Assembly (NCBI GenBank): GCA_021790815.1
Contig: JAJYFT010000008.1
Span: 1-42,438, forward strand
Length of the DNA: 42,438 nt
Source of the DNA: Actinomycetes bacterium
GTDB lineage: Bacteria; Actinomycetota; Acidimicrobiia; Acidimicrobiales; JABEUL01
Direction of reading: 5' to 3'
Below, piece after piece: positions 2,684-11,089 of this stretch; positions within the stretch are counted from its first letter, which is position 1; every line of letters starts with the position of its first letter. The notes under the pieces are model-generated. The model worked only from the letters and a program-made list of their open reading frames with translations, searched no databases and had not been told where the DNA came from. The position numbers and the translations under genes were made by a program.

Positions 2684-4171
2684 CTAAGTACATTCTTTTC
2701 CAGGTCCAACTGTAACGCTGACCTTACTTTGTCCTTTGTTTGCTACGATTCCTATTGTGTTTCCGCAACCTGAAGATAACTTTCCGCCTATAACTGATAC
2801 CGAGTAGCCGGTTGGGTAAGAATAGGAAGGAACTGCAAAACTTGTGACTGAGCCATCTGGAAATGGCTTATTGTTAACACCCAATGTTGAATAAGTAAAT
2901 GTCAACGTACTTGAACTGAAATTATACGTATCTGATATTGGCGTTCCAGCTACCGCTAAGGGGTATGGCTGGACCAAGGACGAAAGTGTTGAGGAGGTTA
3001 AGTTGCTTGTTGACGGAGCAAGTGATACGTTTTTAATCATCTCACCGAGCGACCAGAAAATCCAGGGGACCATTGCGGAGTTGAATAGTTCACTTTGGCT
3101 TTGAATTTCAGATGAGTTTGTTGTTGCGCCCCACTCAGTATTTAAAAGTGCACCGTTAGTCTGTTTTGACCAGGCTATCGCGTTATTGATTACATTAGGA
3201 TTGTCTGAAGCCGAAAGCGTGTACATATGGAAACTCATTCCAGAATTTGGATCATTGCCAGGGAGACTGATACTGGTTGTCGAAGTACCAAAATTAAAAA
3301 GCACAAATGGTTCTCCAAATATTATGTGATTGTCCCCTTGAGATCTTATTGCTTTAACTGCTCCGGTATAGGCTACATTTAACTCTTTTTGATCTAGAGT
3401 TTTGCATCCATTTGGGTCATTCAGGCAGTTTTGCCATGTTAGACCGGGCCAAGGCTCGTTGAAAAGATCATAACCTATGATGCTAGTGGACCTAGCAAAT
3501 TTTTTAGCTAGAGATTTAAACATGTCATCGTAATAAGTTTGGATTGGCTTACCGTTAACCACTGCGTTGTCCCAAAAACTTTGAAATGCATTTTGAATAG
3601 CCGGGTTACTAATGTAATAGAGGGGAAACCCTACTCCGTTATTAATGGCCCCGTTAGTATCGGTCAACCAGGTGGGAAATCCATCGGAACCAATGGATGG
3701 ACCGTAGCCATCTTGGTGGAAATCGATCAAAGTGTAGATGCCTGCATTTTTCAGAACTTCTACGGTAGAGGCAATGCTGTTTATATAATTTTCATCGATA
3801 TTCCCTGGAGTAGGCATTAGCCCTGTGGCTAATACGCCGAGCCGAACAATCCGAAAGCCATTTTTTGCTAAAAACTCAGCGTCTGCAGCATTAAATCCAG
3901 TAGCAGCTGGTTCATAAGGTGGGCTCTTAACAACTTCATTTGTACCGTGAAATAGTAAAACTCGTCCGTATTGATCTATGATCCACCGACCACTATGACT
4001 CAAAAGCCCTTGTGGGGTAAGGGACGTAGGAATTTGTGACTGTTGAGTGGTAGCTGTCTGTGATGAACTGGTTGAGCTGCATGTACTCAAGAAAAACGCA
4101 AAAATTAGACAAAGTGGAAAGAAAATGGACAGCTTGTTACGATTAGAAAATTGGTTCAATATTGATATCAC
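2684..4171 (-). CDS. Glycoside hydrolase family 5, endoglycoceramidase-like, exported (possible lipoprotein)
   Basis: GRWIIDQYGRVLLFHGTNEV, FRIVRLGV, YTLIDFHQDGYG, GYDLFNEPWPG (acid/base Glu), NTEWGATTN (nucleophile Glu). Signal peptide with LSTC. Confidence 0.8.
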   Translation of the reverse strand: MISILNQFSNRNKLSIFFPLCLIFAFFLSTCSSTSSSQTATTQQSQIPTSLTPQGLLSHSGRWIIDQYGRVLLFHGTNEVVKSPPYEPAATGFNAADAEFLAKNGFRIVRLGVLATGLMPTPGNIDENYINSIASTVEVLKNAGIYTLIDFHQDGYGPSIGSDGFPTWLTDTNGAINNGVGFPLYYISNPAIQNAFQSFWDNAVVNGKPIQTYYDDMFKSLAKKFARSTSIIGYDLFNEPWPGLTWQNCLNDPNGCKTLDQKELNVAYTGAVKAIRSQGDNHIIFGEPFVLFNFGTSTTSISLPGNDPNSGMSFHMYTLSASDNPNVINNAIAWSKQTNGALLNTEWGATTNSSEIQSQSELFNSAMVPWIFWSLGEMIKNVSLAPSTSNLTSSTLSSLVQPYPLAVAGTPISDTYNFSSSTLTFTYSTLGVNNKPFPDGSVTSFAVPSYSYPTGYSVSVIGGKLSSGCGNTIGIVANKGQSKVSVTVGPGKECT

Positions 4172-5853: not shown

Positions 5854-6489
5854 TTAGAACTTGAGCAATTGATAGGTTTCATCTGACGTTGGAGCCGTTA
5901 AAATTGCAACGACTAAATCTTTTAAATGACTTATAAACAGCCTGTTGTCAGATTTCGGGACTTGGCTTGCTCTTCTTCCCAATTCAGAAAAAATAAACCT
6001 GATTGCTGTGAATCTACGGTGAAGTTTAGTTATGGCCTCTTCCGCCATATAGCTTTCAACTAACATTCGAAAACGGTAAGTGCTGTCATGAGTTTCGATA
6101 GAAAAATTTTCAATTAATTTGATAGTTGGGTCATTAATAATTTCAGACATGATCCGTAGAAAATTTCTACCACTTCCAGCATCATCAAGTTTTGAAGCTA
6201 GCGGAACTATGTATGCTTGAACTAATGAACTTAATTCCATAGAACCTGTTGATTCAAGTGTGTCAAAAATAGCGTTTCTTTTAGTTTCTATTTCTTCATA
6301 GTGCGGCATTATTATGGACCGAATAACTCCCTCTTTATTCTTAAAGTGATACTGCACTGCATTTGAGTTTTTTTGACCTGCAGCTATGTTTATCTCGCGC
6401 AACGACACGTTGGCAATTCCTTTTGTCGCGAAAAGTTCCTCAGCGGTTGCTAAAATAATCTGCTTTGAATCTGGAAAACTATTTCTCAT
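5854..6489 (-). CDS. TetR family transcriptional regulator
   Basis: N-terminal HTH: ILATAEELFATKGIANVSLREINIAAGQKNSNAVQYHFKNKEGVI. Confidence 0.9.
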   Translation of the reverse strand: MRNSFPDSKQIILATAEELFATKGIANVSLREINIAAGQKNSNAVQYHFKNKEGVIRSIIMPHYEEIETKRNAIFDTLESTGSMELSSLVQAYIVPLASKLDDAGSGRNFLRIMSEIINDPTIKLIENFSIETHDSTYRFRMLVESYMAEEAITKLHRRFTAIRFIFSELGRRASQVPKSDNRLFISHLKDLVVAILTAPTSDETYQLLKF

Positions 6490-6505
6490 AATTGATTAGA
6501 CAAGT

Positions 6506-6543
6506 TAATATATATGTATTATATACTAATATATATGTATTAT
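6506..6543. promoter_or_regulatory. Tandem pair of near-palindromic 16-17 bp boxes (TAATATATATGTATTAT), candidate TetR operators
   Basis: Identical copies at 6506-6522 and 6527-6543, 21-bp period. Each 16-mer differs from its reverse complement at one symmetric position pair. Lies in the tetR/HAD divergent region. Confidence 0.6.
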
Positions 6544-7248
6544 GGAGTACTTTTTGATTTTGCTGGAACGCTTTTCAGTTTGAGGGATATGAGAAAACAG
6601 TTTCGCGAGGTATTAATCGACGTTTTAGAAAAGGGAAACGTCCAATATGCTACTGATGACATAGGTGCTGCATACAAAGAATCGGTTGCAAAGGCGTTTA
6701 TTGAGGTCGGCGGCACCCCTTTTTACTACCATCGTGATCTATTTAAAGTAGCATTTATTAATTTTCTTGACCATTTTGGTGCTGAAAATACGGAAGAACT
6801 TAGTACTTATGGACTTGAGAGACAGACCTCAATGGCTATTCAAGCCCCAGCCCTAAGATCATCAGTGTTGCCAACCCTAAAATTTTTGAAAGAGAGTGGA
6901 ATTAGCACAGCAATTGTTTCAAATATTGATAATGATCATTTCTATCCAATGTTAGAAAGACTTGACTTGTTTGAACATGTCGATTTTGTAATTAGTTCTG
7001 AAGAAGCATGTTCTTGCAAGCCAGATCCCAAAATTTTTAATATTGCACTTGACAACCTTAAACTTGAGCCTTATCATACTCTCTTCGTTGGAGACACGCC
7101 TTTTGCAGATATCGAAGGAGCCAAATCATTAAACATGGCAACCGCTCTTATTAATGAAAAAAGCGATTTTGGCCTAAAGATCATATCTGATAGGGAATTT
7201 CAAATATCGGACATCAAAGACATCGTTGAAATTGTTAGGGGGAAATGA
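6535..7248 (+). CDS. HAD family hydrolase
   Basis: GVLFDFAGTLFS, STAIVSNIDNDHF, CKPDPKIFNIAL, LFVGDTPFADIEGA. Start ambiguous between 6514 and 6535 because of the repeat. Confidence 0.88.
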   Translation: MYYGVLFDFAGTLFSLRDMRKQFREVLIDVLEKGNVQYATDDIGAAYKESVAKAFIEVGGTPFYYHRDLFKVAFINFLDHFGAENTEELSTYGLERQTSMAIQAPALRSSVLPTLKFLKESGISTAIVSNIDNDHFYPMLERLDLFEHVDFVISSEEACSCKPDPKIFNIALDNLKLEPYHTLFVGDTPFADIEGAKSLNMATALINEKSDFGLKIISDREFQISDIKDIVEIVRGK

Positions 7249-8312
7249 TGGATATTGAGAGCTTAAGTAAACTTCAAGAAGTTGTTGGCAAAGACGTAGT
7301 TGATTTTGAGATACTTCTTGGGTGGATGGACGAACACTCCATTGGTTCAGGGCCTATAGAGAATGTAAGACTCTTAGCCGGTGGTACGCAGAACATTTTA
7401 GTTAGATTCGATAGAGAGAACAAAACTTATGTCTTACGAAGGCCCCCAGTCCATCTTAGAAAGGCGAGTAATGAGGTACTTCGAAGAGAGGCTACAATCC
7501 TCAAATCTCTCGGCAAAACTTCAGTGCCTCACCCCAAATTCATATTAGGTTGTGATGACGAGACTGTTATGGGGGTTGTATTTTATCTTATGGAGTATAT
7601 CGAAGGTTTTAATCCTGCAACTGGTTTACCTGAGTGTTACTTGAAGAATGAATCTTTTCGATTTGAGATGGGTCTGGATGCGGTAAAGGGCGCAGCAGTA
7701 CTTGGATCTCAGGACTATATTTCACTTGAACTTCAAGACTATGGAAAGCCTGAGGGGTTTTTAGAGAGACAGGTCAATAGGTGGCTGAGTGAACTTGAAT
7801 CATATTCGGTCATTGAAGGTTATGAAGGTCCTCAAATAGCTGGTCTAGAAGAGGTGTCTAGATGGCTTGAAGAGTTTAGACCAATAACTTTTGAACCAGG
7901 AATCATGCATGGAGATTATCATCTCGCAAATCTCTACTTTGATTTAAACACACCTAAACTTTCAGCAATTCTTGATTGGGAAATGTCAACTATTGGAGAT
8001 CCGCTAGTAGATTTAGGCTGGCTTATAGCAACTTGGCCAGGTGATGACGCTCTTGCGGTGGGCCCAGCTATGGGCCTAAAGGATGTAACAGGTTTCCCAA
8101 CCAAAAGTGAGATGATTGAGCACTACTCAAAGTTTTCCACTAGAGATCTAGTTCAGATTGACTGGTATGTCGTCTTTGCCTGTTTCAAGTTAGGAATTAT
8201 ATTAGAAGGAACTCACGCAAGAGCTTGTGGTGGAAAGGCTGATAAAGGAGTTGGAGATTTGTTGCACTCGATAACGGTAGCGCTTTTCGATAAAGCGTTA
8301 AAACTATGTTGA
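7245..8312 (+). CDS. Aminoglycoside phosphotransferase-fold kinase, ACAD10/11 N-terminal type (LvaA-like)
   Basis: GGTQNILVRFDRENKTYVLRRPP, IMHGDYHLANLYFD (HGDxxxxN), ILDWEMSTIGDPLVDLGWL. Confidence 0.9.
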   Translation: MMDIESLSKLQEVVGKDVVDFEILLGWMDEHSIGSGPIENVRLLAGGTQNILVRFDRENKTYVLRRPPVHLRKASNEVLRREATILKSLGKTSVPHPKFILGCDDETVMGVVFYLMEYIEGFNPATGLPECYLKNESFRFEMGLDAVKGAAVLGSQDYISLELQDYGKPEGFLERQVNRWLSELESYSVIEGYEGPQIAGLEEVSRWLEEFRPITFEPGIMHGDYHLANLYFDLNTPKLSAILDWEMSTIGDPLVDLGWLIATWPGDDALAVGPAMGLKDVTGFPTKSEMIEHYSKFSTRDLVQIDWYVVFACFKLGIILEGTHARACGGKADKGVGDLLHSITVALFDKALKLC

Positions 8313-8355
8313 ATTATTCAAGCGAAAAGTTTGTCATTTAAAGAAAGGATAGAAG

Positions 8356-9591
8356 ATGCCAATTGATTTTACACTTTCAAAGGAAGTAGAGGAGATTCGG
8401 AATAGAGTTAAGGTTTTTGTGGAAGACACAATTATGCCTGCAATAAAGGATTTTGATGACGAAGAGAAGTTACTTTCTCGCCAGGAGTATATCCTTACAA
8501 TTCTGGATTTGAGGGAGAAAGCGAAACAAGAAGGTTTGTGGTTGCCCCACATGCCAAAAGAGTGGGGAGGCATGGGGCTTGGCCACGTCGAACTCGCCAT
8601 GGTTCAAGCTGAAGCTGCAAAAACCAGGCTAGGACCGTGGATTCTGAACTGTCAGGCGCCTGATGAGGGAAACATGCATACGTTGTTACATTGGGGAACT
8701 GACGAACAAAAAGAACAGTATTTAAGACCTCTTTGTGAGGGAACTACAATGAGCTGTTTTGCGATGACTGAACCGGAAGTTGCGGGTAGTGATCCAACTT
8801 TAATTCGCACAACTGCGATAAAAGATGGGGATGAGTGGGTTATCAATGGACATAAATGGTTTATATCAAATGCAAGAAGAGCAAGTTTTGCAATCTTGAT
8901 TGCCCGAACTGAGCTAGATGTTCCAGGAGGATCGAGAGGTGCTACAACTGCATTCTTGGTCGAAACTTCAAAGAGTGGCTGGAACGAAGTAAGAGAAATT
9001 GAAACAATGCATGGCTCAACTGGTCATAGTGAAATTCTGATTCAGGATCTACATGTGGATGATTCGAAGGTCTTAGGAGGCCGAGGAAATGGACATAGGC
9101 TAGGGCAGTACAGGTTGGGTCCAGCAAGGCTTGCGCACTGTATGAGATGGATCGCTCAAGCAGAAACAGCACTAAATATGATGGTAGATAGGTCTTTAAG
9201 TCGGTATTCCCATGGCTCTCTTTTGGCAGAAAAGCAAGGTATTCAGTGGTTGATAGCAGATTCTGCAATGGAACTGTATCAGTGTAAATTGATGGTTTTA
9301 CATGCTGCTTATAAGATTGATAAAGGTGAAGATTTTAGAACGGAGGTCTCGATGGCAAAGCACTTTGTTGCAAACAGTCTCAACCGAATCGTAGATCGAG
9401 CAATTCAAGTTCATGGTGCACTTGGATATTCAACAGATACACCATTAGCAAGTATGTTTCAGCATGCAAGATGGTCTCGTTTTGCTGATGGTGCGGACGA
9501 GATTCATCAGATGAGAATTGCTGAAAGAACAATCTCAGCGTACAGAGATACAGGGTCTGTAAATAAGGCAACTGGGAGCCTTCCAATTTAA
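8356..9591 (+). CDS. Acyl-CoA dehydrogenase (ACAD10/11-like)
   Basis: CFAMTEPEVAGSDPTLIRTTA, GDEWVINGHKWFISNA, RIVDRAIQVHGALGYSTDTPLASMFQHAR. Confidence 0.93.
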   Translation: MPIDFTLSKEVEEIRNRVKVFVEDTIMPAIKDFDDEEKLLSRQEYILTILDLREKAKQEGLWLPHMPKEWGGMGLGHVELAMVQAEAAKTRLGPWILNCQAPDEGNMHTLLHWGTDEQKEQYLRPLCEGTTMSCFAMTEPEVAGSDPTLIRTTAIKDGDEWVINGHKWFISNARRASFAILIARTELDVPGGSRGATTAFLVETSKSGWNEVREIETMHGSTGHSEILIQDLHVDDSKVLGGRGNGHRLGQYRLGPARLAHCMRWIAQAETALNMMVDRSLSRYSHGSLLAEKQGIQWLIADSAMELYQCKLMVLHAAYKIDKGEDFRTEVSMAKHFVANSLNRIVDRAIQVHGALGYSTDTPLASMFQHARWSRFADGADEIHQMRIAERTISAYRDTGSVNKATGSLPI

Positions 9592-9606
9592 GCAGGAGAG
9601 TAATAA

Positions 9607-10341
9607 ATGAAATATGAAGGAAAGGTCGCGTTTGTAACGGGTGCTGCAAATGGGATAGGGCGCGAAGCAGCTAAGAGGTTTAAGGAAACTGGCGCAAAAG
9701 TAATTCTTAGTGATATTGACGTTGAAAAAGGTGCACTACTTGCTAAAGAACTAGATTCTTACTTTATCAAGCTTGACGTATCAAGTTACGATGAAAATCA
9801 AAGTGCATTTAAAGTAGCGAATGAAGTACATGGCAAACTCGACATTGTCTTTTTAAATGCTGGAGTGTCGAGTAACATAGGGATTGACAGCACTTTTAAC
9901 GCCGCGCGTTACCGAGAGGTGATGGGTATAAATCTAGATGGTGTGGTCTATGGGCTTAACTCAGCACTTCCGTATCTCTCATCAAATGGAGGGCAAATAG
10001 TAGCAACAGCAAGCATGGCAGGAATAGTAGCTTTGCCACAAGACCCAATTTACTCTGCGAATAAACACGGTGTTGTAGGTTTAATTAGGTCCGTTGGTGA
10101 GGGTGTTGCTCAAAATATAAAGGTTAATGCCATCTGTCCATCTTTTGCTGACACAAATATAATAAAAGATGTCAAAGCTGTTTTGGAAGAATTAAAATTT
10201 CCAATTTTAAAGGTTTCTGAAGTTATCGATACTTTGTTTGAGATTCTTGACTCGAATGAAAGAGGTAAATGTTGGTTTGTAATTCCGGGGAGAAAGTCAG
10301 AACCATTTAGTTTCAGAAATGCACCAGGACCAAGAGTTTAG
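9607..10341 (+). CDS. Short-chain dehydrogenase/reductase
   Basis: AFVTGAANGIGREAAKRF, LNAGVSSN, YSANKHGVVGL (YxxxK). Confidence 0.92.
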   Translation: MKYEGKVAFVTGAANGIGREAAKRFKETGAKVILSDIDVEKGALLAKELDSYFIKLDVSSYDENQSAFKVANEVHGKLDIVFLNAGVSSNIGIDSTFNAARYREVMGINLDGVVYGLNSALPYLSSNGGQIVATASMAGIVALPQDPIYSANKHGVVGLIRSVGEGVAQNIKVNAICPSFADTNIIKDVKAVLEELKFPILKVSEVIDTLFEILDSNERGKCWFVIPGRKSEPFSFRNAPGPRV

Positions 10342-10402: not shown

Positions 10403-11089
10403 TTAACCATTCTTAAGGTTTTCGAGAACTCTTTTAGCAGCATCAATCATATTTGGTGAATTTGTTATGGATCGACCTAACACTATAAAATCAGCACCTG
10501 ATTTGAAAGCTTCAGAGGGTGTTGCAACACGTTTTTGATCGTTGTTTTCATTTCCCTTAAGTCTTATCCCAGGAACCAGCGTAAGAAGGTTTGGCGCAAA
10601 ATTGTTTACGAACTTTAAGTCACTCGACGCGCAAACAACGCCTTCAATATTGGTGTTCTTAGCAATCGATAATCTCTCTGTCATCGTAGCTTCCGTGGCT
10701 TGTGGTTCGCTTGTCAGTACTGTCACTCCAAGCACAGTTGTTGGTGCACTGCCAACTATTAATCCGTCTCTCACCCCTTCCTTGCATGCTAATACCATCT
10801 CTTCTCCACCACTCAAATGAACCGTTATGAAGTCAACGCCAAGCTTTGCCAATGCTTTAGTTGCTGAGTAGACGGTGTTAGGTATATCAAAAAGCTTTAA
10901 GTCGATGAATACTTTCAAATTTATACTTTTTAGTTCGCTAATTATTTCAGGGCCAACATTTGAAAAAAGCTGTAAGCCAACTTTAACAATTCCAAAGAAA
11001 GGATTGAGTGATGAAGCAATGCTTAAAGCATCTCGCTTTTCATCCAAATCTAATGCCAGCACTAACGAATCACGCCAAATATTTTCCAA
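10403..11089 (-). CDS. pyrF: Orotidine 5'-phosphate decarboxylase
   Basis: LVLALDLDEKRDAL, VKVGLQLF, VFIDLKLFDIPNTV (DxKxxD), DFITVHLSGG, LGRSIT. Confidence 0.95.
   Translation of the reverse strand: MENIWRDSLVLALDLDEKRDALSIASSLNPFFGIVKVGLQLFSNVGPEIISELKSINLKVFIDLKLFDIPNTVYSATKALAKLGVDFITVHLSGGEEMVLACKEGVRDGLIVGSAPTTVLGVTVLTSEPQATEATMTERLSIAKNTNIEGVVCASSDLKFVNNFAPNLLTLVPGIRLKGNENNDQKRVATPSEAFKSGADFIVLGRSITNSPNMIDAAKRVLENLKNG

Follow-up and report, generated by a model that had tools for sequence, protein, structure and literature searches.

The contig JAJYFT010000008.1 (assembly GCA_021790815.1), a stretch of 42,438 nucleotides from an uncultured actinomycete of the order Acidimicrobiales that is hereafter called the window, carries an operon for a HAD-family protein, an APH-fold kinase, an acyl-CoA dehydrogenase (ACAD) and a short-chain dehydrogenase/reductase (SDR), opposite a divergent gene for a TetR-family regulator. 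We consider it fairly probable that this TetR-controlled operon feeds 4-hydroxy (and 4-oxo) acyl-CoAs into beta-oxidation, with the HAD protein as an accessory partner of the kinase. Its kinase and ACAD, which probably channel 4-hydroxy fatty acids into breakdown, correspond to the two enzymes that are fused in human ACAD10 and ACAD11. The HAD protein is the part most worth following; its recurrent link to kinases and its lack of the catalytic acid/base are points that the initial annotation of this DNA did not contain.

Results

The TetR // HAD-APH-ACAD-SDR block that the initial annotation had described was found at 5854-10341, with the gene order, the divergent TetR and the junctions as it gave them: a 4-nt overlap of the HAD and kinase genes (ATGA), 43 nt between kinase and ACAD, and 15 nt between ACAD and SDR. 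Position 6506, where it had let the genes begin, is no gene start; a 17-bp direct repeat begins there. The five proteins matched Pfam families above the gathering scores (TetR_N; Hydrolase/HAD_2; APH; Acyl-CoA_dh N, M and 1; adh_short). The intact block recurs in identical order and orientation in three further family members (G001, G003 and G005; loci L103, L104 and L105), which argues against a chance assembly, and the genes flanking it vary from genome to genome. Amino-acid identity to the window's proteins in these loci is lowest for the HAD (38-40%) and highest for the ACAD (81-89%). A comparison of G001 with G003 gives a dN/dS of 0.09 for the HAD and of 0.01-0.06 for the remaining genes, so that all five are proteins maintained under purifying selection. 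Orthologues of the TetR regulator (45-47% identical, divergent from the HAD) were found in L103-L106, and of the SDR (48-55% identical, 3' of the ACAD) in L103-L106 and L108. The kinase alone is lost from the block in G004 (L106), where TetR, HAD, ACAD and SDR are kept, HAD and ACAD are about 160 nt apart (L106:7933-10136, the same place as L143) and no kinase remnant was found between them. A genome of another family (G027) has APH-ACAD-SDR without the HAD. Family members with named records are metagenome assemblies of Acidimicrobiales or Actinomycetes.

The assignment of the ACAD to the ACAD10/11-LvaC type was borne out. Its best match in the PDB is human ACAD11 (2wbi; 229 bits versus 160 bits for MCAD), it does not group with the ordinary beta-oxidation dehydrogenases, and all diagnostic residues align. 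In the mouse enzyme, R626, H634, R637 and the catalytic D753 have been linked to 4-phosphoacyl-CoA (PMC12440821). The set R626, R631, H634 and R637 (R....R..HCMR) is matched by RLGPARLAHCMR at residue 253 of the window's ACAD, and the catalytic residue is Asp instead of Glu (FADGADEIH at residue 376). Orthologues 64-89% identical, from across the order, had these residues without exception wherever the region was read, whereas six further ACADs of the window's own genome, one of them read only in part, lack them. The source assembly that was searched comprises 2.44 Mb in 179 contigs, the window being contig C131; a second ACAD of the same type, 42-45% identical, is encoded on C11. ACADs 73-82% identical to that of the window (81% in Nonomuraea), with all phosphate-binding residues kept, were also observed at L107, L109-L112 and L198, and no kinase, HAD or SDR homologue was detected beside them.

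The kinase is likewise of the ACAD10/11-LvaA type that had been proposed. Among solved structures it is closest to 9o56, 3dxp and ACAD11, a set made up of ACAD11 and kinases like it, and no kinase residue of the catalytic HGD....N loop is lacking: HGDYHLANL aligns with ACAD11, with the catalytic Asp and Asn present. The Arg of an RQV motif aligns with ACAD11 R176 by residue count; ACAD11 R86, which has no match by number, was omitted from this comparison. Identity as an antibiotic kinase was rejected on the ground of the solved relatives. Two distant kinases are encoded elsewhere in the genome (C32 and C138).

The HAD protein is of the PH0459/TIGR02253 type, scoring 99 bits with the TIGR02253 profile and 43 bits with TIGR02247 (cut-off 125). 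We take the HAD of ACAD10 to be of the TIGR02247 (soluble-epoxide-hydrolase) type, and an ACAD10-type identity was rejected on this score, the comparison being with the TIGR02247 profile and group and not with the human sequence. In a midpoint-rooted tree with very long control branches, used solely to place these two, the window HAD is far from the TIGR02247-type HADs and separated from them with 100/99 support. An AlphaFold2 model (pLDDT 96) has PH0459 (1x42) as its best PDB match (TM 0.83). PH0459, which scores 139 bits with the family profile, is also the nearest natural protein of solved structure by sequence; its motif, DFVGT, likewise lacks the second Asp, and the database records consulted annotate it simply as a hypothetical or HAD family protein.

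Motif I of the window HAD, DFAGT, does not match the DxD motif of catalytic HAD phosphatases, and it reads DxAGT in all five family members. The protein retains the nucleophile Asp, the Ser, the Lys and the Mg-binding Asps, and the general acid/base Asp is gone; D8, G11, T12, S129, K162, D187 and D192 are invariant in an alignment of 40 sequences. At the +2 position of motif I, 34 of 45 clustered relatives have Gly, 11 have Ala and none has Asp; part of this set was found with a pattern that contains AGT, the other pattern leaving motif I untouched. All ACAD-linked HADs have Ala at this position (9/9), and the 11 members from a profile search, some of them genes already in the set, have only Gly or Ala. 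Phosphonatases share a DxAGT motif; this identity was rejected, as the alignment has no invariant cap Lys. A scan of the genome collection for HADs of this type gave 52 loci, most of them in Actinomycetota, Pseudomonadota and Myxococcota. With the thresholds used these HADs are rare, occurring in 3 of 395 genomes in the class, in 6 of 201 in one family and in 4 of 295 in a gammaproteobacterial order. Plasmids gave just weak matches, 24-31% among the matches listed.

Of 45 loci of window-type HADs, 25 have an APH-fold kinase no more than 1.5 kb away, versus 1 of 37 loci of other, control HADs (Fisher p 1.3e-7, without correction for the relatedness of the loci, because of which it overstates the case). 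The kinase is directly 3' of the HAD on the same strand in 23 of the 25 linked loci, frequently with an overlap. At the sole control locus with an APH neighbour (L028), the HAD is an ordinary DLDDT protein. No APH kinase or ecdysteroid kinase-like (EcKL) kinase was found within 1.5 kb of TIGR02247-type HADs at 12 loci in 11 genomes that carry a window-type HAD. The adjoining kinases are of two types: the ACAD10/11 type in the window's family, in metagenome-assembled genomes (L128, L129, L130 and L134) and in Haliea (L156), and the EcKL type in Pseudomonadales and Myxococcota. When an ACAD is linked as well, three arrangements occur (HAD-APH-ACAD-SDR; ACAD-HAD-APH...TetR-SDR-SDR; TetR // ACAD-APH-SDR-HAD), and for this reason a shared HAD-kinase partnership fits better than an inherited gene order.

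Pairs of a HAD immediately followed by an EcKL-type APH-fold kinase were seen in Pseudomonadales and Myxococcota at L122, L127, L135, L137, L138, L141, L144-L148, L150, L152, L157 and L159, with SDR, P450 or RPE65-like genes close to them.

The remainder of the module is more widespread. In Sulfitobacter, Sphingomonas, Caulobacter, Massilia and Pseudomonadales, kinases 44-53% identical to that of the window are accompanied by an LvaC-type ACAD and an SDR, and in many cases also by a TetR homologue in divergent orientation; in Rhodococcus the kinase is adjoined by a TetR gene or an SDR. The TetR homologues beside the kinase are 40% identical in Rhodococcus, 44% (over part) in Sulfitobacter and 40% in a Pseudomonadales genome; the one adjoining the Caulobacter module is 31% identical. 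None of these stretches yielded a homologue of the window HAD. Since such TetR/APH/ACAD/SDR modules of other phyla do without it, the HAD is an accessory of a widespread module.

Discussion

Catabolism of 4-hydroxyacyl-CoAs, as the initial annotation had suggested, stays the best guess for the operon and is supported by a kinase and an ACAD of the ACAD10/11-LvaA/LvaC type. In the proposed route, the SDR would interconvert 4-oxoacyl-CoA and 4-hydroxyacyl-CoA; the kinase, by homology, would phosphorylate the 4-hydroxyl group with ATP to give 4-phosphoacyl-CoA; and the FAD-dependent ACAD, judging from homology and its residues, would expel the phosphate to yield 2-enoyl-CoA. By analogy with ACAD10, the HAD could act as an accessory partner of the kinase that restrains it or senses the phospho-intermediate.

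Some of our observations weigh against this scheme. The loss of the second Asp extends over the whole HAD family, including HADs with no kinase nearby, and is thus not specific to the kinase partnership; in the sample found with the profile hidden Markov model, just 4 of 11 members have a kinase beside them. The kinase is lost in L106/L143 while HAD and ACAD are retained, and in many members of the order the ACAD clade has no adjoining kinase. Finally, the operon has neither a CoA ligase nor a thiolase, so that context does not fix its substrate. Another hydroxylated acyl-CoA, for example from a sterol, terpenoid or aromatic side chain, might undergo the same phosphorylation and elimination in place of simple 4-hydroxy fatty acids. 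The closest kinases outside the class sit in Rhodococcus, Sphingomonas and Massilia clusters among other degradation genes, and relatives of the HAD adjoin EcKL kinases together with P450, SDR and RPE65-like genes. We nevertheless hold such a substrate to be possible but rather unlikely: all diagnostic ACAD residues agree with those of enzymes proven on 4-phosphoacyl-CoA, and with 4-hydroxyhexanoyl-CoA as substrate a bacterial orthologue pair took the place of the ACAD10 domains in vitro (PMC11342911).

The lva genes of P. putida and P. citronellolis, which include a kinase, an ACAD and an SDR, offer the closest parallel for the SDR, since LvaD reduces levulinyl-CoA to 4-hydroxyvaleryl-CoA (PMC6692424). 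The Pseudomonas lva operon, which serves levulinate and 4-hydroxyvalerate catabolism, resembles that of the window in its separate APH-fold kinase, LvaC-type ACAD and SDR, in the order A-C-D and in the expected chemistry. It differs in its sigma54-dependent LvaR, where the window has TetR, and in the HAD that precedes the kinase in the window's operon, which has no LvaB (no open reading frame between kinase and ACAD) and no CoA ligase LvaE (the operon ends at the SDR). The lva clusters of these two species have a variable extra gene, either LvaB or, in P. citronellolis, a histidine phosphatase instead of lvaB (PMC6692424). The window's SDR had been proposed as a possible 3-hydroxyacyl-CoA dehydrogenase, which is not supported: its position and fold match those of LvaD, a reducer of 4-oxoacyl-CoA (PMC6692424). 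As it occupies LvaD's place, reduction of 4-oxoacyl-CoA is likelier than oxidation of 3-hydroxyacyl-CoA, and position and fold suggest an interconversion of 4-oxoacyl-CoA and 4-hydroxyacyl-CoA. Three loci in large genomes, with a 30-31% identical kinase, were considered as Pseudomonas lva operons; they gave no LvaC-type ACAD by tblastn and so could not be named lva.

The likeness to ACAD10 (HAD-kinase-ACAD) and ACAD11 (kinase-ACAD) lies in a homologous kinase and ACAD with the key residues kept and, for ACAD10, in a HAD that precedes the kinase and is without the second catalytic Asp; in the window, by contrast, the proteins are separate and the HAD is PH0459/TIGR02253-like, not TIGR02247-like. 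The description of the operon as a dissected ACAD10 therefore holds for the HAD-APH-ACAD order and not for common descent, which we reject because the HAD subfamily differs and the gene order is shuffled: a survey of its conservation showed ACAD-HAD-APH and ACAD-APH-SDR-HAD in other genomes. The HADs appear to belong to different subfamilies, and the common order looks convergent. We found no description of a bacterial HAD-kinase-ACAD operon in the open-access literature.

The human ACAD10 HAD, which has no second Asp, shows negligible phosphatase activity on 4-phospho-hydroxyhexanoyl-CoA, and mutation of its remaining Asp (D48A) raises kinase activity (PMC11342911). The window HAD may similarly be a brake on its kinase, the role that we prefer; because the general acid/base Asp is missing, a kinase restraint or a sensor of the phospho-product is likelier than an efficient phosphatase. 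The proofreading phosphatase of the initial annotation lost ground with the replacement of this Asp by Ala. It is unlikely, though less so than an unrelated function, that the HAD works as a genuine if slow phosphatase in proofreading or salvage, clearing 4-phosphoacyl-CoA that has stalled or is the wrong stereoisomer, or else the free 4-phospho acid. The nucleophile Asp, the Lys and the two Asps of motif IV do not vary, as is typical of Mg-dependent phosphatases, and a phosphate-removal role has been proposed for the histidine phosphatase of the P. citronellolis lva cluster (PMC6692424). Against this, the acid/base Asp is Ala or Gly in all members read, and the same loss goes with negligible activity on the phosphorylated substrate in ACAD10 (PMC11342911). 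A dehalogenase or hydrolase of an unrelated substrate, merely co-transcribed, is improbable: haloacid dehalogenases, which also have no second Asp, turn up among the fold matches, but the N-terminal cap region, up to residue 108, has no Arg that is invariant, motif IV (GDxxxxD) keeps the Mg-binding phosphatase form, and in three different arrangements the HAD is again linked with APH kinases and LvaC-type ACADs.

To return to the restraining partner, we tentatively propose, at less than even likelihood, that HADs without the catalytic acid/base serve in several bacterial phyla as dedicated stand-alone regulatory subunits of small-molecule kinases of the APH superfamily (ACAD10/11-type and EcKL-type), and that in ACAD10 such a brake arose independently, in fused form. 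How the ACAD10 HAD restrains its kinase (PMC11342911) is a question that the bacterial operons make directly testable, as their HAD, kinase and ACAD are separate and each can be added to or omitted from an assay. Should HADs and kinases be paired in general, an overlooked regulatory partner would exist for many APH and EcKL kinases that are now unannotated. The operon moreover predicts a concrete 4-hydroxyacyl-CoA route in uncultured Acidimicrobiales.

Other features of the window

Table 1. Features of the operon region in the window
Feature	Position	Strand	Remarks
TetR-family regulator	5854-6489	-	Divergent from the operon; TetR_N 31.8 bits
Two exact 17-bp copies of TAATATATATGTATTAT	6506-6522 and 6527-6543 (span 6506-6543)		21 bp apart; divergent promoter region between TetR and HAD
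HAD-IA protein, PH0459/TIGR02253 type	6514-7248, probable start 6535	+	Motif I DFAGT, with Ala for the second catalytic Asp
APH-fold kinase, ACAD10/11-LvaA type	7245-8312	+	4-nt overlap with HAD; PF01636 120 bits; catalytic loop HGDYHLANL
Acyl-CoA dehydrogenase, ACAD10/11-LvaC type	8356-9591	+	Phosphate-binding set RLGPARLAHCMR; FADGADEIH with catalytic Asp
Short-chain dehydrogenase/reductase	9607-10341	+	adh_short 147 bits; in the LvaD position, likely 4-oxoacyl-CoA reductase

Within each copy of TAATATATATGTATTAT lies an ATG at which the HAD gene could start; 6535 is the likelier start because relatives align from there. The repeats are a candidate operator for the TetR regulator. On the 3' side of the SDR, the operon is bounded by a minus-strand gene (10403-11089) that, judged by eye, is orotidine-5'-phosphate decarboxylase-like. 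Further upstream, 2684-4171 encodes a glycoside hydrolase family 5 (GH5) protein with a GH5 C-terminal domain, possibly endoglycoceramidase-like.

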